Below are positions 8,295 through 62,729 of a DNA stretch of 64,000 bases, piece by piece. Positions within the stretch are counted from its first letter, which is position 1, and each line of letters opens with the position of its first letter. The notes below the pieces were generated by a model. That model saw only the letters and a list, made by a program, of their open reading frames with translations. It searched no databases and had not been told where the DNA came from. Where the stretch lies: positions 2,542,001-2,606,000 of the forward strand of contig NZ_CP108474.1 in the NCBI RefSeq assembly GCF_036226445.1, given 5' to 3'. The DNA is from Streptomyces sp. NBC_01255. Lineage in GTDB: Bacteria; Actinomycetota; Actinomycetes; Streptomycetales; Streptomycetaceae. The translations under genes were made by a program, and so were the position numbers.

Positions 8295-8792
8295 GTGAAG
8301 TCATCCCACCGGCCCTTCGGCCTGCCCGCCGCCGTCACGGCAGCCGTCCTGCTGCTGGCCGCCACCGGCTGCTCCTGGACGGACGCCGGGGCGTCCGTGG
8401 CGGTTCCCCACCCCCCGGCGGCGGAGGCGGACCTCTGCCGGGCGCTGGAGAAGGAGCTGCCCGACACCGTGGCGGGTCTTGAGCGGAGCGATCCTGAGCC
8501 GGGCTCCGAGCTGACCGCCGGGTGGGGTGACGGTGCGATCGTACTGCGCTGCGGGGTCCCCCGGCCCGAAAAGATGAGCGATCCGAACTCCCAGGCCGTC
8601 GAGGCGAACGGCGTGAACTGGATGCTGGAGCGTCCGGAGGGCAGCGGACCCCGTTTCACGTCGGTGTACCGGGAGACGTACGTCGAGGTGACGCTGGACG
8701 AGCGGTACCGGCACGACGCCACACCGCTCGCCGATCTCGCCGCCCCCGTGGAGAAGACGATCCCCTGCGGCCTTGATCCGGAGTGCGTCTAG
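8295..8792 (+). CDS. DUF3515 family lipoprotein
   Basis: A 165-residue secreted lipoprotein. A basic start (VKSSHRP) is followed by a hydrophobic stretch ending in the lipobox LAATGC at ~29-34, then PHPPAAEADLCRALEKELP, the DUF3515 core, and a CGLDPEC tail. Function is unknown. Family members sit in this same position in many actinobacteria, next to the Lrp-domain gene and ddl. A GTG start is used; no strong ribosome-binding site is visible in the 20-bp gap, which suggests translation coupled to the upstream gene. Confidence 0.8.
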   Translation: MKSSHRPFGLPAAVTAAVLLLAATGCSWTDAGASVAVPHPPAAEADLCRALEKELPDTVAGLERSDPEPGSELTAGWGDGAIVLRCGVPRPEKMSDPNSQAVEANGVNWMLERPEGSGPRFTSVYRETYVEVTLDERYRHDATPLADLAAPVEKTIPCGLDPECV

Positions 8793-8855
8793 GCGCACCC
8801 CGGATCTCACGGTCCGGTCCGAACCGGGATCGGCTTCGGTCCGGCCCCGGTCCGG

Positions 8856-9995
8856 CTAGCGCAGGCCCGTGGAGCGGGTCAGCGCGGCCTGGATCAGCCG
8901 GTCGACGAGCTCGGGGTAGCTCACGCCGCTCTCCTGCCACATCCGCGGGTACATGGAGATGGGAGTGAAGCCGGGCATCGTGTTGATCTCGTTGATCACG
9001 AACTCGCCGTCCTCGGTGAGGAAGAAGTCGGCGCGGACCAGGCCCTCGCAGGAGACGGCCTCGTAGGCGGCGACGGCCAGGCGCTGGATCTCGGCGGTGG
9101 CCTCGTCACCGATCGGCGCGGGCACGATGCCGGAGGCCGAGTCGATGTACTTGGCCTCGAAGTCGTAGAAGTCGTGGTTCGTGACCGGCGGGATCTCGGC
9201 CGGGACGCTGGCGCGCGGGCCGTCCTCGAACTCCAGGACGCCGCACTCGATCTCGCGGCCGCGCAGGAGCGACTCGACGAGGATTTTGGGGTCGTGGCGG
9301 CGGGCCTCCTCGATGGCCTCGTCCAGGCCCGAGAGGTCGTCGACCTTGGTGATGCCCATGGACGAGCCGCCGCGGGCCGGCTTCACGAAGAGCGGCCAGC
9401 CGTGGTCGGCGGCGAACTCGACGATCTTCTTGCGGGCGGCGGCCGGGTTCTGCTCCCACTCGCGCGGGCGGATGACCTCGTACGGGCCGACGGGCAGTCC
9501 GAAGGAGACGAAGACGCGCTTCATGTACTCCTTGTCCTGGCCGACGGCGGAGGCGAGGACGCCCGCGCCGACGTAGGGGACGCCGGAGAGCTCCAGGAGG
9601 CCCTGGAGGGTGCCGTCCTCGCCGTACGGGCCGTGCAGCATCGGGAAGACCACGTCTACCTCGCCGAGGGCCCGCGGGACGGAGCCGGGCTCGCTGAGGA
9701 CGACCTCGCGGTTCGCGGGGTCGACGGAGAGGACGACACCGCCCTCCGCGGACTCGGCCAGGTCGGCGACGTTCGGCAGGGCGCGGTCGGCGATGGCCAT
9801 GCGCTCGGGGGCGTCGGCGGTGAGCGCCCAGCGCCCGTCCGTCGTGATGCCGATGGGCAGCACGTCGTACTTGTCCCGGTCGATGGCGCTCAGGACGGCG
9901 CCCGCCGTGACGACGGAGATGGCGTGCTCGGAGCTGCGACCGCCGAAGACGACGGCCACGCGCGGCTTGCGGGGGCTCTGGGTGTTCTCGCTCAT
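8856..9995 (-). CDS. ddl: D-alanine--D-alanine ligase
   Basis: ATP-grasp ligase that makes the D-Ala-D-Ala dipeptide for peptidoglycan precursors in the cytoplasm. The 379-residue protein shows RVAVVFGGRSSEH near the N-terminus, FVKPARGGSSMGI (ATP-binding loop), GREIECGVLE, and the C-terminal metal-binding VINEINTMPGFTPISMYP. It is converging on the DUF3515 gene and lies 75 bp downstream of gpsA on the same strand. The sequence looks like an ordinary D-Ala-D-Ala enzyme; nothing in the window suggests a vancomycin-type D-Lac cluster. Confidence 0.96.
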   Translation of the reverse strand: MSENTQSPRKPRVAVVFGGRSSEHAISVVTAGAVLSAIDRDKYDVLPIGITTDGRWALTADAPERMAIADRALPNVADLAESAEGGVVLSVDPANREVVLSEPGSVPRALGEVDVVFPMLHGPYGEDGTLQGLLELSGVPYVGAGVLASAVGQDKEYMKRVFVSFGLPVGPYEVIRPREWEQNPAAARKKIVEFAADHGWPLFVKPARGGSSMGITKVDDLSGLDEAIEEARRHDPKILVESLLRGREIECGVLEFEDGPRASVPAEIPPVTNHDFYDFEAKYIDSASGIVPAPIGDEATAEIQRLAVAAYEAVSCEGLVRADFFLTEDGEFVINEINTMPGFTPISMYPRMWQESGVSYPELVDRLIQAALTRSTGLR

Positions 9996-17119: not shown

Positions 17120-17192
17120 TACCCCCGACCGGATTCGAACCGGCGCTACCGCCTTGAGAGGGCGGCGTGCTAGGCCGCTACACAACGGGGGC
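17120..17192 (-). tRNA. tRNA-Glu (anticodon CUC)
   Basis: A 73-nt cloverleaf on the minus strand. The acceptor arm GCCCCCG pairs with CGGGGGT, the anticodon loop is CCTCTCA with CTC at 34-36, and the T-arm has GGTTCGAATCC. The discriminator is A and CCA is not encoded. Identical in sequence to two further copies at 17320 and 17477. Confidence 0.95.
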
Positions 17193-17233
17193 CTTTGCGG
17201 ATCAGATCCGCGGGTGCAGATGAGCTCTGCGAG

Positions 17234-17305
17234 CTGGCCTACCTGGACTCGAACCAAGAATGACGGTACCAGAAACCGTAGTGTTGCCAATTACACCATA
17301 GGCCA
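17234..17305 (-). tRNA. tRNA-Gln (anticodon CUG)
   Basis: A 72-nt cloverleaf on the minus strand with acceptor TGGCCTA/TAGGCCA and discriminator G. The anticodon stem ACGGT/ACCGT encloses loop TTCTGGT, giving CTG. The T-arm has GGTTCGAGTCC. In actinobacteria without GlnRS this tRNA is charged by GluRS and amidated. Confidence 0.95.
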
Positions 17306-17319
17306 TGGTGGTTACACCG

Positions 17320-17392
17320 TACCCCCGACCGGATTCGAACCGGCGCTACCGCCTTGAGAGGGCGGCGTGCTAGGCCGCTACACAACGGGGGC
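17320..17392 (-). tRNA. tRNA-Glu (anticodon CUC), second copy
   Basis: Same 73-nt sequence as the copy at 17120-17192, 14 bp from the neighbouring tRNA-Gln. Confidence 0.95.
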
Positions 17393-17403
17393 CCTAGCGA
17401 TCC

Positions 17404-17423
17404 CACCCGGCATGAGCCGGGTG
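17404..17423 (-). other. hairpin between tRNA-Glu copies
   Basis: CACCCGGC (17404-17411) and GCCGGGTG (17416-17423) form a perfect 8-bp stem with an ATGA loop in the 84-bp spacer. It could be a processing site or weak terminator dividing the array into two units. Confidence 0.5.
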
Positions 17424-17476
17424 ATGTCACCGCGGATTCACCGGGAGCTACCCAAGTGTTCCGCAGGATGGATCTG

Positions 17477-17549
17477 TACCCCCGACCGGATTCGAACCGG
17501 CGCTACCGCCTTGAGAGGGCGGCGTGCTAGGCCGCTACACAACGGGGGC
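17477..17549 (-). tRNA. tRNA-Glu (anticodon CUC), third copy
   Basis: Same 73-nt sequence as the other two tRNA-Glu genes. It is 41 bp downstream of the second tRNA-Gln in the direction of transcription. Confidence 0.95.
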
Positions 17550-17590
17550 TTTGTGGATGCCATCCACGAGTTGCAGATGAGCTCTGCGAG

Positions 17591-17662
17591 CTGGCCTACC
17601 TGGACTCGAACCAAGACTAACGGAACCAGAAACCGTCGTGCTGCCAATTACACCATAGGCCA
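17591..17662 (-). tRNA. tRNA-Gln (anticodon CUG), second copy
   Basis: 72-nt cloverleaf with the same acceptor and T-arms and CTG anticodon as the first copy, but several differences in the anticodon stem and variable region. The 31-39 position reads T-T here instead of a T-A pair. It is the most upstream gene of the array. Confidence 0.94.
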
Positions 17663-54266: not shown

Positions 54267-55607
54267 TCACGATACGGGCAGCTGATCTCGTTTCTGGCCG
54301 GGCAGGGTGCCGGGGCCGCCGGAGCCGGAGGCGCCGACCCGGCCCAGGTCGATGTCGCGGGTCTCCCGCATGACGAGATAGACGACCAGCGAGACGGCCG
54401 CGCAGCCCGCCACGTACCAGGAGAAGCCGGACTCGATCCCCGCGTTCTTGAACCACAGCGCCACGTACTCGGCGGTGCCGCCGAAGAGGGCGTTGGCGAC
54501 GGCGTACGGGAGGGCGACGCCGAGGGCACGGATGCCGGTCGGGAAGAGCTCGGCCTTCACACAGGCGTTGATGGAGGTGTAGCCGGTGACGACGAGCAGC
54601 GCGAGCAGGGAGAGGCCGAGGGCCGGCCAGAAGGAGCCCGCGTGCTTGAGCATCGCCAGGATCGGCACGCTGAGGAGGGTGGAGCCGATCGCGAAGGTGA
54701 TGAGGAGCGGGCGGCGGCCGATCCGGTCGGACAGCGCGCCGGCCAGCGGCTGGAGGCAGGCGAAGACGATGAGGGCGCAGAAGGAGACCAGGGTCGCGGT
54801 CTGCTTGGGCAGCCCTGCGGAGTTGGAGAGGTACTTGGTGAGGTACGTGGTGTACGTGTAGTAGGCCACGGTCCCGCCCATGGTGAGGGCGACGACGAGG
54901 AAGGCCTCGCGCCGGTGCCCCCAGAGCGCCTTGAGGGTGCCCTGCTCGCCGGCGGCCACCCCGTCGCCCGCGCTCTCCTCGTACACGTCCGTCTCCAGCA
55001 TCGTGCGGCGCAGGTAGAAGACGACGGCCGCACCGAGGGCGCCGATGACGAACGGGATGCGCCAGCCCCAGCTGTGCAGGGCCTCGCTGGACATCGTCTG
55101 CTGGAGCACGATCAGCAGGCCGAGGCCGAGGACCTGGCCCGCGGTCATCGACACGTACTGGAAGCTGGAGGCGAAGCCGCGGTGCTCCGGCGCGGAGGCC
55201 TCCGTGAGGTAGGTGGCGCTGGCGGCGTACTCGCCGCCGACGGAGAGCCCCTGGAGGAGGCGGGCGATCAGGAGGACCGCCGCGCCGCCGTAGCCGGCGA
55301 CGGCGTAGGTGGGGGCCACGGCGATCAGGAGCGCCGAGGCGGACATGAGGGTGACGGTGAGGGTGAGCGCCGCCTTGCGGCCCTTGCGGTCGCCGACCCG
55401 GCCGAGGAGCCAGCCGCCGACGGGCCGCATGAAGAAGCCGACGGCGAAGATGCCGGCGGTGTTCATGAGTTTCGCGGTGTCGTTCCCCTCGGGGAAGAAG
55501 GATCCCGCGAAGTAGGTGGCGAAGCTCGCGTACACGAACCAGTCGAACCATTCGACCATGTTGCCGGCGGAGCCGACCCAGATCTTCTTCCAGTGCTCTC
55601 GTCCCAT
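54267..55607 (-). CDS. MHS-family (MFS) organic-acid:proton symporter
   Basis: A 446-residue membrane protein with 12 predicted helices. Diagnostic motifs are GNMVEWFDWFVYASFATYFA at TM1, GWLLGRVGDRKGRK between TM2 and TM3 (MFS motif A), and RLLQGLSVGGEYAAS in TM4. This is the metabolite:H+ symporter group, which includes alpha-ketoglutarate, proline/betaine, shikimate and citrate carriers; the substrate cannot be told. A TetR gene begins 75 bp upstream of its start and points the same way, so local control is likely. Confidence 0.87.
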   Translation of the reverse strand: MGREHWKKIWVGSAGNMVEWFDWFVYASFATYFAGSFFPEGNDTAKLMNTAGIFAVGFFMRPVGGWLLGRVGDRKGRKAALTLTVTLMSASALLIAVAPTYAVAGYGGAAVLLIARLLQGLSVGGEYAASATYLTEASAPEHRGFASSFQYVSMTAGQVLGLGLLIVLQQTMSSEALHSWGWRIPFVIGALGAAVVFYLRRTMLETDVYEESAGDGVAAGEQGTLKALWGHRREAFLVVALTMGGTVAYYTYTTYLTKYLSNSAGLPKQTATLVSFCALIVFACLQPLAGALSDRIGRRPLLITFAIGSTLLSVPILAMLKHAGSFWPALGLSLLALLVVTGYTSINACVKAELFPTGIRALGVALPYAVANALFGGTAEYVALWFKNAGIESGFSWYVAGCAAVSLVVYLVMRETRDIDLGRVGASGSGGPGTLPGQKRDQLPVS

Positions 55608-55682: not shown

Positions 55683-56315
55683 TTACGGTCGCGGCAGCAG
55701 GTCCTGCTCGATGAACTCCCGTACGTGGGCGAGGACTTGCTCCCGGCCCGTGCCCGGGATCCCGACGGCCACATGCACACTGAAGCCGTCGAGCAAAGCC
55801 CTCGTACGGGTGGCGAACCGGTCCGGGTCGACCGCCCGGAACTCCCCCCGCGAGACCCCTTCGGCGAGGATCGCGACCAGGTCCCGGTGCCAGGCCCACT
55901 CGATGGCGGCCTGCCGGGCGCGGGCGTCGTCGTCGGCGTTCGGCGAGCGGTTCCAGACCTCCAGCCACAGGGTCCAGTGCGGGTCGCGCGGGCCCTTGGG
56001 CACGTACACGTCGACGTACCCGTCGAGCCGCTCGCGCGCGGTCCCGGGCCGGGCGAGCAGCGCGCTCCGCGCGGCGCCGAGCCGCCCCTCGCTCCACTCC
56101 AGGGTCTGGAGCAGCAGCTCGTCCTTGGTGCGGAAGTAGTAGAGCAGGTGCCCGCTGCTCATCCCGACCTGCCGCCCGAGCCCGGCCATGGTGAGCCCGT
56201 CGAGCCCGCGCTCGGCGATGGTGTCCATCGCCGCGGCGAGCACGTCCTCGCGGGGCGGGGCGGCCTGGTTGCGGCGGCGGGGAGGGGGTGGGGTCGGGTC
56301 GCTGCTCTGACTCAC
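55683..56315 (-). CDS. TetR-family regulator
   Basis: A 210-residue protein. A proline-rich N-terminal stretch (PTPPPPRRR) precedes the HTH (REDVLAAAMDTIAERGLDGLTMAGLGRQVGMSSGHLLYYFRTKDELLLQ), and the C-terminal half resembles the BetI-type ligand domain (WTLWLEVWNRSPNADDDARARQ). The neighbour downstream is the MHS transporter, its most likely target. The sigma-factor stop lies 9 bp upstream on the same strand, so read-through from it is possible. Confidence 0.87.
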   Translation of the reverse strand: MSQSSDPTPPPPRRRNQAAPPREDVLAAAMDTIAERGLDGLTMAGLGRQVGMSSGHLLYYFRTKDELLLQTLEWSEGRLGAARSALLARPGTARERLDGYVDVYVPKGPRDPHWTLWLEVWNRSPNADDDARARQAAIEWAWHRDLVAILAEGVSRGEFRAVDPDRFATRTRALLDGFSVHVAVGIPGTGREQVLAHVREFIEQDLLPRP

Positions 56316-57396: not shown

Positions 57397-57792
57397 ATGG
57401 CCGTACAGACGACTCCGGCACCGGGCAGGTTCACGTTCTCGCAGGTCGCGGTCGCCCTGCAGACCCTGGCCCTGTTCTTCCAGGCGGTCACCGCCGGCAT
57501 GCTGCTGTCCGGGTCCCTCGGCACGACGCTGCACGACGCCGGCTCGAAGGTGATGTACGGCGCGTCGATGCTGTACCTCGTGGCCGCGATACTGGCGTGG
57601 CGGCGGGGCGGGGGCTCCCCTCGCCCGGCCCTGTACGCCACCGGCTTCCTCGTGCTCGCCTCGGCGCAGGTGGTGCTCGGCGTCATGCACGTGCCGTCGG
57701 TCCACGTCCCCCTGGGCATCGTGATGTTCGCCCTGAGCGTCCTGGCGCTGGCCGCCACGGTGCGGACTACACGCGGGGCTGCTGCTGCGTGA
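57397..57792 (+). CDS. small integral membrane protein, likely ECF41 target
   Basis: A 131-residue protein with four predicted helices (VAVALQTLALFFQAVTAGMLL, VMYGASMLYLVAAILAW, ALYATGFLVLASAQVVLGVM, PLGIVMFALSVLALAATV). No family is recognised, though the layout resembles small DoxX-like or DUF membrane proteins. It is divergent from the ECF41 gene, behind a matching promoter. Its 3' end overlaps the convergent agmatine deiminase gene by 26 bases. Confidence 0.72.
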   Translation: MAVQTTPAPGRFTFSQVAVALQTLALFFQAVTAGMLLSGSLGTTLHDAGSKVMYGASMLYLVAAILAWRRGGGSPRPALYATGFLVLASAQVVLGVMHVPSVHVPLGIVMFALSVLALAATVRTTRGAAAA

Positions 57793-58783
57793 TGCAGTGG
57801 ATGCCGCCGCCGCCCGCGAAGATCGCCCGTGCGTCGACCAGGGTCACCGTGCGGTCCGGGAAGAGCCGGCGGAAGATCTCGGCGGCGAGTTCGTCGTGCG
57901 GGTCGTCGAAGGCGCACAGGACCACGCCGTCGTTGCACAGGTAGTGGTTGATGTAGGAGTAGTCGACCCAGTCGCCCTCCTCGTCCTTGAGGACGGTGGG
58001 GGCCGGGATCTCCACGACCTCCAGGGGGCGGCCCTGCGCGTCCGTCTGACCGCGGAGGATGCTCACGTACATCCGCGAGCGCTCGTAGTCCGGGTGGGCC
58101 GGGTCCTGCTGGCTGTGGACGAGGATCGTGCCGGGGCGGGCGAAGGCGGCGACGATGTCGACGTGGCCCTGGGTGCCGTACAGGCCGTAGTCGCCGCTGA
58201 GGCCGTGCGGGAGCCAGATGGCCTTCGTGGTGCCGAGCTTGGCGTGGATCTCGGCCTCGACCTGTGCGCGGGTCCACTCCGGATTGCGGCCCGAGCCGAG
58301 CTGGACGGTGTCGGTCAGCAGGACCGTGCCCTCGCCGTCGACGTGGATCGCGCCGCCCTCGTTGACCAGCGGGGAGGAGAGTACGGGGATCCCGGCGGCG
58401 TCCGCGACATGGCGGGCGATCTTGGAGTCGTGCTCCCAGCGGGCCCAGTCCTGGGCGCCCCAGCCGTTGAACACCCAGTCCACGGCCGCCAGTTCGGTGC
58501 CGTTCGTGACGAAGGTCGGGCCGATGTCCCGCATCCAGGCGTCGTCGAGGTCGCGCTCGACCAGCTCGATCTCCGGGCCGAGGAGTTCGGCGGCCGACTC
58601 CGTGTCGCCGGGGGCGACGACCATCGTCACCGGCTCGTAGCCGCGTACGGCCCGGGCCACGGACGCCCAGGCGGCGCGCGCCTCGGCGAGCTCCTCCTCG
58701 TTGGTGAAGGTGGGGTTGGTGCTGGGCCAGGCCATCCAGGTGCGCTCGTGCGGCATCCACTCGGCGGGCATACGGAACGTCAT
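57767..58783 (-). CDS. aguA: agmatine deiminase
   Basis: Hydrolyses agmatine to N-carbamoylputrescine and ammonia. The 338-residue guanidine-modifying enzyme has MPAEWMPHERTWMAWP at the start, DDAWMRDIGPTFV (substrate-guanidinium acids), GGAIHVDGEGT, and the C-terminal catalytic cysteine C330 in GGGGIHCITQQQP. It lies nine bases after the urease-like alpha gene, so it is probably the third gene of that operon. No N-carbamoylputrescine amidohydrolase (AguB) is present in the window. Confidence 0.93.
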   Translation of the reverse strand: MTFRMPAEWMPHERTWMAWPSTNPTFTNEEELAEARAAWASVARAVRGYEPVTMVVAPGDTESAAELLGPEIELVERDLDDAWMRDIGPTFVTNGTELAAVDWVFNGWGAQDWARWEHDSKIARHVADAAGIPVLSSPLVNEGGAIHVDGEGTVLLTDTVQLGSGRNPEWTRAQVEAEIHAKLGTTKAIWLPHGLSGDYGLYGTQGHVDIVAAFARPGTILVHSQQDPAHPDYERSRMYVSILRGQTDAQGRPLEVVEIPAPTVLKDEEGDWVDYSYINHYLCNDGVVLCAFDDPHDELAAEIFRRLFPDRTVTLVDARAIFAGGGGIHCITQQQPRV

Positions 58784-58792
58784 CGAAGAGTC

Positions 58793-60475
58793 CTAGAGGA
58801 AGTAGAGGCGGTTGAGGGAGACGGACTCGGCCGCTTCGGAGCGGATCGGGGAGCCGTCGAGCGAGACGAGGCCCGTATCGCCGTCGACCTGCACGTCTCC
58901 GGTACGGGAGTTGAAGACCAGGTCCGCGGGGCCGATGCCGCGCGTGCCGCGCACGGGGACGCGGCGGCGGCGGGTCGGCAGCGCGTCGGAGCCGAGGTCG
59001 ACGGCGGCCCGCGCCACGAACGCGACGGAGAGGTCGGCGGCCGTGGCGCCGTGCGCGCCGAACAGCGGTCCGAGGACGAGCGGTTCACAGGTGTCCGTGG
59101 CGGCGTTCGGATCGCCCACGACCCCCCACGCGGGGAAGCCGGACTTCAGCACCATCTGCGGCTTGGCTCCGAAGAACTCCGGCCGCCACAGCACGATGTC
59201 GGCCAGCTTGCCGACCTCGATCGAGCCGATCTCGTGTGCGAGGCCGTGGGCGATCGCCGGGTTGATGGTGAGCTTGGCCATGTACCGCAGGACGCGCGCG
59301 TTGTCGTCGTGCGCGCCGTCGCCCTCCAGCGGGCCCAGCTCGGCCTTCATCTTCCCGGCCATGGCGAAGGTCCGGCGTACGGTCTCGCCGGCCCTTCCCA
59401 TCCCCTGCGCGTCGGATGAGGTGATCCCGATCGCGCCGAGGTCGTGCAGGACGTCCTCCGCGCCCATCGTCCCGGCCCGGATCCGGTCGCGCGCCATGGC
59501 GGCGTCGCCCGGGAGGTCGGTCTTCAGGTCGTGGACGGAGACGATCATCCCGTAGTGCTCGGCGACCGCGTCGCGGCCGAAGGGCAGGGTGGGGTTGGTG
59601 GAGGAGCCGATGACGTTCGGCACGCCCGCCATCTTCAGGACGTTGGGGACGTGTCCGCCGCCGCAGCCCTCGATGTGGAAGGCGTGGATGGTCCGGCCGT
59701 CCAGGACGCGGAGGGTGTCCTCCACCGAAAGGCATTCGTTGAGGCCGTCGCTGTGCAGGGCGACCTGGACGTCGTGCTCCTCGGCGACCCGCAGGGCGGT
59801 GTCGAGGGCCCGGGTGTGGGCGCCCATGTCCTCGTGCACCTTGAAGCCGGACGCCCCGCCCTCCGCCAGCGCCTCCACGAGCGGCGCCGGGTCCGAGGAC
59901 GAGCCGCGGGCCAGGAAGCCGATGTTCACCGGCCAGGCGTCGAAGGCGTTGAAGGCGTGGCGCAGCGCCCAGGGCGAGTTGACGCCGACGCCCCAGACGG
60001 GGCCGAACTCCTGGCCGATGATCGTGGTGACGCCGCTCGCGAGCGAGGCCTCCATGATCCGGGGGGAGAGCAGGTGGACGTGGGTGTCGACGGCTCCGGC
60101 GGTGGCGATGAGGCCCTCGCCGGAGACGATCGAGGTGCCGGTGCCGACGACGACGTCGACGCCGTCGAGGGTGTCGGGGTTGCCGGCCCGGCCGATGGCG
60201 TGGATCCGGCCCTCGCGGATGCCGATGGACACCTTGCGGATGCCCTGCACGGCGTCGATGACGAGGACGTTGCTGATGACGACGTCGCAGGTCTCGCGGA
60301 CGGCGGCGGCCTTGAGGTGGAGGCCGTCGCGGGCGGTCTTGCCGAATCCGGCGAGGAACTCGTCGCCGTGCTTCTGGGAGTCGGACTCGACGCGGACGAC
60401 GAGCCCGGAGTCGCCCAGGACGACGCGGTCGCCGGCCCGGGGGCCGTGTACGGAGGCGTACTCGTACGGGTCCAT
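58793..60475 (-). CDS. atypical urease alpha-subunit homologue
   Basis: A 560-residue amidohydrolase of the UreC family. Nickel-ligand equivalents are all present: H132 and H134 (VDTHVHLLSP), K212 (GFKVHEDMG, the carbamylated lysine), H241 (VALHSDGLNE), H267 (FHIEGCGGGH) and D355 (TSSDAQ). The flap that in true ureases reads MVCHHLD is replaced by IVSVHDL, so catalytic Cys319 and His320 (K. aerogenes numbering) are S313 and V314. It overlaps the preceding fused gamma/beta gene by one base. No ureDEFG accessory genes lie in the window. Urea may not be its substrate. Confidence 0.85.
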   Translation of the reverse strand: MDPYEYASVHGPRAGDRVVLGDSGLVVRVESDSQKHGDEFLAGFGKTARDGLHLKAAAVRETCDVVISNVLVIDAVQGIRKVSIGIREGRIHAIGRAGNPDTLDGVDVVVGTGTSIVSGEGLIATAGAVDTHVHLLSPRIMEASLASGVTTIIGQEFGPVWGVGVNSPWALRHAFNAFDAWPVNIGFLARGSSSDPAPLVEALAEGGASGFKVHEDMGAHTRALDTALRVAEEHDVQVALHSDGLNECLSVEDTLRVLDGRTIHAFHIEGCGGGHVPNVLKMAGVPNVIGSSTNPTLPFGRDAVAEHYGMIVSVHDLKTDLPGDAAMARDRIRAGTMGAEDVLHDLGAIGITSSDAQGMGRAGETVRRTFAMAGKMKAELGPLEGDGAHDDNARVLRYMAKLTINPAIAHGLAHEIGSIEVGKLADIVLWRPEFFGAKPQMVLKSGFPAWGVVGDPNAATDTCEPLVLGPLFGAHGATAADLSVAFVARAAVDLGSDALPTRRRRVPVRGTRGIGPADLVFNSRTGDVQVDGDTGLVSLDGSPIRSEAAESVSLNRLYFL

Positions 60476-61161
60476 CAGTTGCCCTCGATTCCCAGGTAGC
60501 CGCACGCCCGCGCCCTGCGCAGGGCTTCTTCCTTCGCGCCGGGCGCGTCCAGCGGGCCGTCGACCAGGCCCGCGAAGCCGATGGCGACGCGCGCGCCGCC
60601 GATCGGCACGAGGCCGACCTCGGCCTCGCCGCCCGGGTCGAAGCGGAAGGAGGCGCCGGCCGGGATGGCGAGCCGCATGCCGTAGGAGGCGGCCCGGTCG
60701 AAGTCGAGGCGGGGGTTGGCCTCGAAGAAGTGGAAGTGGGAGGTGACGCTCACGGGCACGGTCGCCGTGTTCCGTACGTGGACGGTGACCGCGGGCGCGG
60801 GCTCCGGGTGCTCGGGGCCGGGCAGCAGGGCGCCCGGCGCCTCCGCCCCCAGCCGTCCTCCGCCGATCGGGTCGGAGACGACCGCGAGCCGGGAACCGTC
60901 GTCGAAGACGGCCTCCACATGGACCTCGGTGACCACGTCGGCGACGCCGGGGAGGACGTCGTCGGGGCCGAGGACCGAGCGGGCCTGGGCGATCGCCTCG
61001 GCGAGTCGCTTGCCGTCGCGGGCCGCCTCGCAGACGGTGTCCGCGATGAGCGCGGTCGCCTCGGGGACATTGAGCCGCAGGCCCCGGGCCCGGCGGGCAC
61101 GGGCGAGCTCGGCGGCGCCGAAGAGCAGCAGCCGGTCGCGTTCCGTGGGGGTCAGTCGCAC
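60475..61161 (-). CDS. fused urease gamma-beta subunit homologue
   Basis: A 228-residue fusion. Residues 1-~100 are the gamma domain (MRLTPTERDRLLLFGAAELARARRARGLRLNVPEATALIADTVCEAARDG) and ~105-228 the beta domain (VHVRNTATVPVSVTSHFHFFEANPRLDFDRAASYGMRLAIPAGASFRFDPG). The fusion occurs in some other ureases. GTG start with AGGAGG ten bases upstream. It is the first gene of the operon with the alpha subunit and agmatine deiminase, divergent from the NCS1 permease with shared operator-like repeats. Confidence 0.87.
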   Translation of the reverse strand: MRLTPTERDRLLLFGAAELARARRARGLRLNVPEATALIADTVCEAARDGKRLAEAIAQARSVLGPDDVLPGVADVVTEVHVEAVFDDGSRLAVVSDPIGGGRLGAEAPGALLPGPEHPEPAPAVTVHVRNTATVPVSVTSHFHFFEANPRLDFDRAASYGMRLAIPAGASFRFDPGGEAEVGLVPIGGARVAIGFAGLVDGPLDAPGAKEEALRRARACGYLGIEGN

Positions 61162-61179: not shown

Positions 61180-61266
61180 TTGAGCGCCACTCTAAATGTT
61201 GAGACGCCGGGAGCCAAGCATTGACGTGGCCGACGACGTAAGTCACATTGAGCGTCACTCTAAAAG
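61180..61266. promoter_or_regulatory. two direct-repeat operator-like sites between the urease operon and permease
   Basis: TTGAGCGCCACTCTAAATG (61180-61198) and TTGAGCGTCACTCTAAAAG (61248-61266) match at 17 of 19 bases; each is also an imperfect palindrome around GAGYG-N-CACTC. The first overlaps a likely minus-strand -10 of the urease operon. The second lies at the start point predicted for the permease (TTGACG at 61221-61226, CACATT 17 bases on). One regulator could thus control both directions. Confidence 0.6.
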
Positions 61267-61304
61267 TGAGCCCGTTCCCGTCCCCCAGGCCCCCAGGAGT
61301 CCTC

Positions 61305-62729
61305 ATGCCGATAGAACAGCGCGGAGTCGACACCGTCCCCGAGGCCGAACGCACCAGCGGCCCCCGTGATCTCTTCTCGATCCTGCTCGGCTCCAACCTG
61401 TGTCTGGGCGTGATCGTCTTCGGCTGGCTCCCCGTCTCCTTCGGCCTCGACCTCTGGGGCTCGGTCACCTCGGTGGTCGCCGGGACCGTCGTCGGCGTCG
61501 CCGTCACCGCCCCGCTCGCGCTCGTCTCCCTCCGTACCGCCACCAACCTCTCCACCTCCTCCGGCGCCTTCTTCGGCGTCCGCGGCCGGCTCGTCGGCTC
61601 GGTGGTCGGACTGCTGCTGTCGCTCGGCTACACCGCGCTGACGCTGTGGATCGGCGGGGACGTCATCGTGGGGACGCTGGCCCGGCTGACGGGCCTGCCG
61701 ACCGGCGGCGCCTCGCACGCCGTCGTCTACGCCCTGCTCGCCGCCGGCACGGTCGTCGCCGCGGTCTACGGCTACCGGCTCCTGCTCGCGCTGAGCAAGG
61801 CCCTCGCGGTCGGCATGACCGTGCTCCTCGCGCTCGGCCTGGTCGCGTACGCCGGGGACTTCACGGCGGCCGCCGTACCGGAGACCCCGTACCTGCTCGG
61901 CTCGTTCTGGCCGACCTGGCTGCTCTCCGCGGTCGCCGCCGGGCTCAGCGGGCCCGTCGCCTTCATCACCCTGCTCGGCGACTACACCCGGTACGTCTCA
62001 CCCGAACGGCACGGCGCGAAGAAGGTCTGGCGCGCCACCTGCCTCGGCCTGCTCGTCGGCCTCCTGATCCCCCAGCTCTTCGGCACGTTCACCGCTCTCG
62101 CGTCCCGCGGTGCCCTCGACTACGCGGGGCCGCTCGTCGCCGCCTCCCCCGCCTGGTACCTGGTGCCGCTGCTGCTCGCGGCCACGGCCGGGTCCGTCGG
62201 CAACGCCGGGCTGATGCTGTACTCGATGGGGCTCGACCTCGACGCGATCCTGCCCAGGGCCACCCGGGCGCGCGCCACACTCGTCGTCGCGGCGGTGGCG
62301 ACGGCCTTCGTGTTCCTGGGCCACTTCGCCTCGGACGCCCAGACGGCGATGACCTCGTTCGTCCTGCTGCTCACCGCGATCGGCACCCCGTGGGCCGTGA
62401 TCACCCTGATCGGGCACGCGCGCTGCGGGGGGACGTACGACCCGGAGGCCCTCCAGGTCTACAACCGCCGCTCGCGCGGCGGGATCTACTGGTTCTCGGC
62501 GGGCTGGCACCCGCGCGCCACCGCCTCCTGGGCGATCGGCGCGGCGGTCGGCCTGGCCGGGGTGTCGACGCCGCTCTACGAGGGGCCGCTGCTCGCCCTG
62601 ACGGGCGGGATCGACTGCAGCTTCATGCTGTCGGGGCTGGTGGGCGGCGCGCTGTACGCCGTACTGACGCCGACGAGGGCCCCCGAGACGGTTCCTGCCG
62701 TCTCCGAGGCCCTCGCGGAAGTGGAGTAG
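61305..62729 (+). CDS. NCS1-family nucleobase/hydantoin-type permease
   Basis: A 474-residue membrane protein with about 12 helices. NCS1 features include SILLGSNLCLGVIVFGWLPVSFGL in TM1, GAFFGVRGRLVGSVVGLLLSLGYTALTLWIGGD, LLGDYTRYV in the middle and the second-half SPAWYLVPLLLAATAGSVGNAGLMLYSMGLDL. Family members import cytosine, purines, allantoin or hydantoins with protons or sodium. CAGGAG lies five bases before the ATG. Divergent from the urease-like operon; substrate is probably the ureide or nitrogen source that operon handles (inference). Confidence 0.88.
   Translation: MPIEQRGVDTVPEAERTSGPRDLFSILLGSNLCLGVIVFGWLPVSFGLDLWGSVTSVVAGTVVGVAVTAPLALVSLRTATNLSTSSGAFFGVRGRLVGSVVGLLLSLGYTALTLWIGGDVIVGTLARLTGLPTGGASHAVVYALLAAGTVVAAVYGYRLLLALSKALAVGMTVLLALGLVAYAGDFTAAAVPETPYLLGSFWPTWLLSAVAAGLSGPVAFITLLGDYTRYVSPERHGAKKVWRATCLGLLVGLLIPQLFGTFTALASRGALDYAGPLVAASPAWYLVPLLLAATAGSVGNAGLMLYSMGLDLDAILPRATRARATLVVAAVATAFVFLGHFASDAQTAMTSFVLLLTAIGTPWAVITLIGHARCGGTYDPEALQVYNRRSRGGIYWFSAGWHPRATASWAIGAAVGLAGVSTPLYEGPLLALTGGIDCSFMLSGLVGGALYAVLTPTRAPETVPAVSEALAEVE

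Follow-up and report, generated by a model that had tools for sequence, protein, structure and literature searches.

Urease is the classic example of an enzyme that serves a single tiny substrate and is supplied with nickel by a machinery of its own, and even the urease relatives that work without the usual nickel accessory set, in Bacillus subtilis and as the iron urease UreA2B2 in Helicobacter mustelae, hydrolyse urea. The N-carbamoylputrescine amidase AguB is a Cys-Glu-Lys nitrilase. In Streptomyces coelicolor and S. avermitilis, the operon considered here is described, in the accessible part of PMC2492869, as an additional urease cluster that lacks accessory genes. We analysed a window of 64,000 nucleotides from the 8.57-Mb genome of Streptomyces sp. 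NBC_01255 (contig NZ_CP108474.1, positions 2,542,001 to 2,606,000), which carries such a ureABC-like operon on its minus strand in the order ureAB, ureC-like gene and aguA-family gene. On balance, the gene neighbourhoods and active-site residues compared below favour a role of the UreABC-like complex as a ureido hydrolase that acts after the AguA-family deiminase.

The ureAB-like gene (60475..61161, minus strand) encodes a fused gamma-beta urease subunit of 228 aa, which exceeds the cut-offs of PF00547 and PF00699 and scores 322 bits against NF009671 (cut-off 243). Its stop codon overlaps, within the sequence TGATG, the start of the ureC-like gene (58793..60475, minus strand; ATG at 60475, stop at 58793) for an alpha subunit of 560 aa with PF00449 and PF01979 domains. 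Nine bases (58784-58792) then separate ureC from the aguA-family gene (57767..58783, minus strand), whose product is a guanidino deiminase of 338 aa (PF04371, 383 bits). Coordinates, codon overlap and domains thus bear out an earlier note on this DNA, which had described a gamma-beta fusion coupled to a ureC-like gene nine bases before aguA. Relatives with solved structures match the ureC-like protein over its whole length, and its close relatives are labelled 'urease subunit alpha' in databases; neither it (645 bits) nor its two paralogues in the same genome (638 and 646 bits) reach the cut-off of 680 of the urease equivalog model TIGR01792.

The linkage to deiminase genes is nearly complete: of 118 clade loci, 117 have an AguA-family gene next to the one for the UreC-like protein, as compared with none of 21 ordinary ureC loci. 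All 117 pairs are on the same strand, with a median gap of 42 bases and a largest gap of 1032, and at the single locus without AguA (L081) the contig ends 36 bases beyond the matched part of ureC. The 118 loci comprise the orthologous set of 80 taken from genome contigs, 15 and 20 further loci fetched by place, and L007, L008 and L010 (the window); all their UreC proteins are distinct, but the loci are kin, and the count does not stand for 118 independent events. The co-occurrence of the urease-like clade with aguA, about which the earlier note had asked, is borne out by these numbers. The linkage persists despite differing gene order and a changed AguA subfamily, and it recurs in other actinobacterial families, an arrangement shared by many soil actinobacteria. 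Paralogous operon kinds differ in AguA subfamily, gene order and importer, and in the UreC tree the loci with an ATP-binding cassette (ABC) importer group with some loci of other genera whose AguA carries the NEGG motif described below (support 0.96-0.99 at inner and 0.85-0.89 at outer nodes). This grouping suggests that UreC has changed its AguA partner during evolution while the pairing as such persisted.

Alignment of 155 clade rows (147 distinct proteins, as eight rows repeat another), sorted into the clade by identity, with 42 other UreC sequences revealed an intact catalytic centre. The ten metal and catalytic residues, in the window H132, H134, K212, H214, D216, H241, H267, H315, R331 and D355, are invariant in all clade rows, and they include the equivalents of urease His219, Asp221, His320 and Arg336. 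The six metal ligands listed by the earlier note (H132, H134, K212, H241, H267 and D355) are therefore kept. The note had further read Cys319 and His320 of the urease flap as replaced by Ser313 and Val314; the loss of the cysteine holds, while the assignment to Ser313 and the loss of the histidine came from a register shifted by one. In the ungapped alignment, window residues 309-317 (G-M-I-V-S-V-H-D-L) face D-M-L-M-V-C-H-H-L of urease, so that Cys319 corresponds to Val314, His320 to the retained His315 and His321 to Asp316. A loss of the catalytic flap histidine is thus ruled out, its equivalent being present in 155/155 clade rows and in all 42 other UreC proteins. According to the part of PMC7433671 available to us, from which we also took the list of pocket residues, His320 is fully conserved, and structural work excluded Cys319 as the general acid and assigned it a positioning role. 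At position 319 the clade has Val in 138 and Ala in 17 of the 155 rows (130 and 17 distinct proteins), and the 42 other UreC proteins have Cys in 38 and Val in four, three of the latter with a rebuilt loop and one (L119) with an otherwise ordinary loop. Two AguA-UreAB-UreC operons of another actinobacterial family (L295 and L296) have Thr at the flap cysteine position; a urease with a Cys-to-Thr exchange is reported from Staphylococcus xylosus.

Altogether, 31 replacements distinguish the clade from other UreC proteins. Ala363 is Gly in all clade rows, Trp222 has become Met and Ala276 Cys, and the loop that bears Ala167 in ureases, GQEFGPVWGVGVNS in the window, is rewritten and four residues shorter. 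Since the ligands and catalytic residues are invariant while the flap cysteine, Ala363 and the Ala167 loop differ, the catalytic machinery is intact and the difference is in the pocket walls.

Other hydrolases occur beside the AguA subfamily of the window. Three features mark this subfamily: NEGG in place of the LEGG of the plant and Streptococcus enzymes, an insertion ahead of TxGHVD and a gate loop of reduced length. The 69 loci surveyed for it comprise 25 with a nitrilase, 22 with an amidase, eight with a UreC-like protein and 14 with none of the three, and not a single locus combines two kinds. The loci were drawn from 61 class-sample genomes outside the genus (all matches at E 1e-85), the phylum sample (L247-L249), two Streptomyces contig-end fragments that end within 40 bases of aguA (L250 and L310) and three plasmid hits; 31 other Streptomyces genomes from the same AguA search were excluded from the count. 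A simple pattern found NEGG in 62 of the 69, and the alignment reveals it in three of the remaining seven. Six additional loci with an AguA of 39-44% identity, two with a nitrilase and four with none, were left out. AguB itself exceeds its cut-off of 410 in L248 (458 bits) and L249 (426 bits), and both partner amidases that were scanned exceed the cut-off of NF005127. In the AguA tree, UreC-linked sequences of type D (L178 and L179) fall among nitrilase- and amidase-linked ones. The simplest reading of this mutual exclusion is displacement: the urease-like complex would hold the place of the nitrilase/AguB or amidase and hydrolyse the ureido product of the deiminase; for N-carbamoylputrescine itself as substrate, the support lies in genome position. 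The flanking genes of some loci fit a route from agmatine through putrescine to aminobutyrate. A Tsukamurella locus (L228) also has a primary-amine oxidase and an aminobutyraldehyde dehydrogenase, L242 has amine oxidase and aldehyde dehydrogenase homologues, and a pyridoxal phosphate (PLP)-dependent decarboxylase directly precedes AguA in L249, with homologues in five amidase loci.

None of the 118 clade loci has an adjoining ureG, compared with all 21 ordinary ureC loci. The earlier note had found no ureDEFG and no aguB nearby. For ureG this stands, both in the 16-kb stretch around the operon (L010) and in the 117 other loci; queries for ureF and ureD gave no match in clade loci, which is weaker evidence as their targets were found in only 10 of 21 control loci, and ureE was not searched. 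AguB above cut-off was absent from all 12 whole genomes searched. In a set of 12 genomes, UreG scored above cut-off in 10, exactly those with an ordinary UreC, and the genome of the window itself encodes UreG and UreD away from the operon. In 13 genomes, the urease-like protein is the sole UreC at E 1e-100: UreG above cut-off was not found in 12 of them (G162, G379, G428, G492, G514, G526, G532, G554, G558, G560, G574 and G594), the exception being G614, and UreD was not above cut-off in the three searched for it (G162, G379 and G428). In all eleven UreG-negative genomes whose operon was read (G560 was left out), it comprises ureAB, ureC and aguA. The metal centre therefore does not appear to need UreG for its assembly, nickel loading by this protein is doubtful, and nickel itself is a putative metal. 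Either another metal or another loading route would be used, or the copies in UreG-negative genomes are idle, against which the conserved residues argue.

Taken together, the unit would break down a guanidino compound that the cell imports, with agmatine or one of its close relatives as the probable candidate. The importer would be the NCS1 permease encoded next to the operon or, at other loci, the ABC system. The AguA-like deiminase, to judge by the family to which it belongs and by its intact set of catalytic residues, would convert R-NH-C(=NH)NH2 to R-NH-CO-NH2 and ammonia. The UreABC-like complex, with its intact two-metal amidohydrolase centre, His315 and rebuilt substrate loop, would then cleave this ureido product and release R-NH2, CO2 and ammonia, a step for which other actinobacteria probably use an N-carbamoylputrescine amidase of the nitrilase family or an amidase-signature enzyme. 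The earlier proposal of a nickel enzyme for N-carbamoylputrescine or another ureide thus survives in its ureide part, through the AguA linkage and the mutually exclusive nitrilase and amidase partners, and loses its structural argument with the retained flap histidine.

The first enzyme of this route has Cys366, His224, Asp226 and Asp94 (Medicago numbering), the catalytic residues, in all 23 aligned AguA rows. In the characterised enzyme, Asp220 and the gate-loop residue Arg301 hold agmatine, as stated in the accessible part of PMC6447857. Several observations weigh against the proposed route, and some of them concern this enzyme. The AguA of the window scores 314 bits, below the agmatine-deiminase cut-off of 382 of TIGR03380 (its paralogues reach 323 and 356), and the gate loop falls short of the length seen in characterised enzymes; agmatine is for these reasons a plausible rather than a certain starting compound. 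In six rows of type A, a Gly or Pro aligns with plant Asp220, which holds the agmatine amine, an alignment that the nearby insertion makes unsure; the Asp that precedes it may substitute. On the side of the partners, 14 of the 69 AguA loci show none of the three hydrolases (open reading frame starts were read around twelve of them, without family scans), and four of the six scanned nitrilases, out of 25, score only 173-220 bits, below the AguB cut-off, although the AguB model is still the best NCBIfam match of these four, the Tsukamurella protein included. Among the 25 nitrilase genes, eight lie on the opposite strand, and so does one of the 22 amidase genes (L229), at a distance of 2.3 kb. 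An AguA homologue occurs in two of four deeper UreC-like loci and is missing from the other two, and no agmatine deiminase is annotated within 9 kb of three sister pairs in biosynthetic clusters, to which we return below. Finally, with every urease catalytic residue but the flap cysteine in place, the protein would be compatible with urea hydrolysis.

This last point leads to an alternative that we regard as unlikely, though the strongest of those considered, in which the complex is a true urease isoenzyme: the AguA-like enzyme would make urea directly, for instance from free guanidine, and UreABC would remove it. In its favour, all catalytic residues but the flap cysteine are retained, this cysteine was excluded as general acid (PMC7433671, in the part available to us), and Val319 also occurs in 4/42 other UreC proteins, among them the one with an ordinary loop, as does Thr in two AguA-linked relatives. 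However, the carbonyl of Ala167 is proposed to bond urea, and precisely the loop with this residue is rewritten and shortened, next to the Gly, Met and Cys replacements of Ala363, Trp222 and Ala276; in the window as in L007 and L008, no riboswitch, guanidine riboswitches included, attained its Rfam threshold. Because unrelated nitrilases and amidases stand in the same operon place elsewhere, a substituted urea rather than urea is the probable substrate.

The order of the two steps could also be reversed, with the urease-like protein as a cyclic amidohydrolase that opens an NCS1-imported ring compound before the deiminase acts on the resulting guanidino acid. Hydantoins, allantoin and bases are known substrates of NCS1 carriers, and the models of dihydroorotase, allantoinase and dihydropyrimidinase match weakly. 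We nevertheless consider ring opening improbable, since the occurrence of AguB, a ureido hydrolase that follows AguA, at this position is easier to reconcile with a later step, and since an Arthrobacter plasmid combines a permease annotated as cytosine permease, adjoining tetR and aguA, with a nearby amidase gene and no annotated Ure genes. A similarly small chance is given to a complex that hydrolyses another amide or ureido compound unrelated to agmatine, with an AguA subfamily that uses a different guanidino compound. The scores of AguA and of four of six partner nitrilases below equivalog cut-offs and the altered look of the agmatine-tail pocket would agree with this, whereas the two AguB proteins above cut-off beside the same AguA subfamily and the oxidase, dehydrogenase and decarboxylase genes of L228, L242, L249 and five amidase loci point back to agmatine.

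Of 151 genomes from the genus, 88 carry the clade, delimited by at least 78% identity. A phylum-wide sample of 296 genomes gave no match above 52% outside the genus and had suggested that the clade is confined to Streptomycetaceae. Family- and class-wide samples revealed it in other genera of the family and, in the class sample, relatives in two further families, f78 (about 85%, six genomes) and f89 (about 52%, two genomes), which rules out such a restriction. Across the 80 orthologous loci (400 pairs per gene), the ratio of nonsynonymous to synonymous substitution rates (dN/dS) was lowest for the UreC-like gene (0.12), followed by UreAB (0.17), CimA (0.18), TetR (0.26), NCS1 (0.28), IlvE (0.31) and AguA (0.36), values that give a ranking only, as high GC makes their absolute size unreliable. 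The lowest value for the UreC-like gene speaks against a decaying gene.

A sister branch was found on plasmids of Embleya and two Streptomyces, where a UreAB/UreC-like pair (about 67% identity; L231:8291-10677, L232:8273-10653 and L233:8282-10647) lies inside a nonribosomal peptide synthetase (NRPS) cluster. These clusters also hold phosphotransferases, a weak B12-binding match and 2-oxoglutarate/iron (2OG-Fe) oxygenase-like proteins, whose matches are weak or barely exceed the cut-off. The pair retains all ten catalytic residues along with the shortened loop, which suggests that the branch accepts larger substrates; the pair is a possible urease-family tailoring enzyme. The broadest form of our proposal, a urease branch of substituted-urea hydrolases (for N-carbamoylputrescine or a similar compound) that replaces AguB in agmatine-type catabolism across several actinobacterial families, assembles its metal centre without UreG and has a sister branch with a tailoring role in NRPS clusters, is put forward more tentatively and has less than an even chance of holding in full.

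Around the operon, a permease of NCS1 type (61248..62729, plus strand; PF02133, 290 bits) diverges from ureAB and is present in 57 of the 80 orthologous loci; it has no PDB relative at E 0.001. On the other side lies a TetR regulator with a BetI-type C-terminus (55683..56315, minus strand; PF00440 and PF13977), with a homologue in 77 of 80 loci, and a major facilitator superfamily transporter (54267..55607, minus strand; PF00083/PF07690), found in 42 of 80, is a less certain member. Elsewhere, the genome has two additional ureABC-like operons (L007 and L008), each with an adjoining aguA-family gene, and one ordinary urease with ureF, ureG and ureD (L006). The AguA/PAD family is expanded to seven genes, including one with a twin-arginine translocation (Tat) signal by model prediction (L016:1492-2631), which the gene L007:12460-13614 resembles by eye, and another (L017) that adjoins a further permease of NCS1-like appearance. 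Inside the ureC-like gene of L008, an antisense match to the Rfam 5' ureB sRNA (8723-9007, plus strand) is exactly at the threshold of 40 bits and most likely reflects mere coding homology. Five tRNA genes also cluster in the window, in a stretch of about 550 bases (17120-17662, minus strand).

Our searches, limited to the open-access PMC literature, gave no proposal of this function for the urease-like complex. If the function proposed here is true, a widespread UreG-free branch for larger ureides would provide a natural test of the roles of the flap cysteine, the Ala167 loop and the accessory proteins, and would supply the second step that an agmatine-type route in Streptomyces lacks. The database name 'urease subunit alpha' may then be wrong for the close relatives of this protein that bear it.

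The nearest described counterpart is Ure(AB)C of Streptomyces, SCO5525-SCO5526 with SCO5527, which by its published description, as compared here without its sequence, has the same arrangement. In the accessible part of PMC3293853, SCO5527 is given as a homologue of the arginine decarboxylase (ADC) pathway and SCO5525-5526 are listed among urea-utilizing genes unaffected by ArgR or arginine; no functional link is drawn there and no active-site change is noted. The part of PMC4991794 available to us names SCO5526-SCO5524 nrdABS, in conflict with the urease annotation of the two other papers and probably through a slip in numbering. AguB shares with the complex its genomic position beside the same AguA subfamily and differs in its unrelated fold and chemistry, as it is no metal amidohydrolase. 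Accessory-independent and iron ureases offer a precedent for urease relatives that function without the customary nickel accessory proteins, although those enzymes cleave urea. With the bacterial urease UreABC of Klebsiella aerogenes and Sporosarcina pasteurii, the complex has in common the three domains, an alpha subunit about 45-52% identical to non-clade UreC and ten identical metal and catalytic residues; it departs from this model in the flap cysteine (Val or Ala, and Thr in two relatives), the Gly at Ala363, the shorter Ala167 loop, the missing adjoining ureG and the coupling to AguA.

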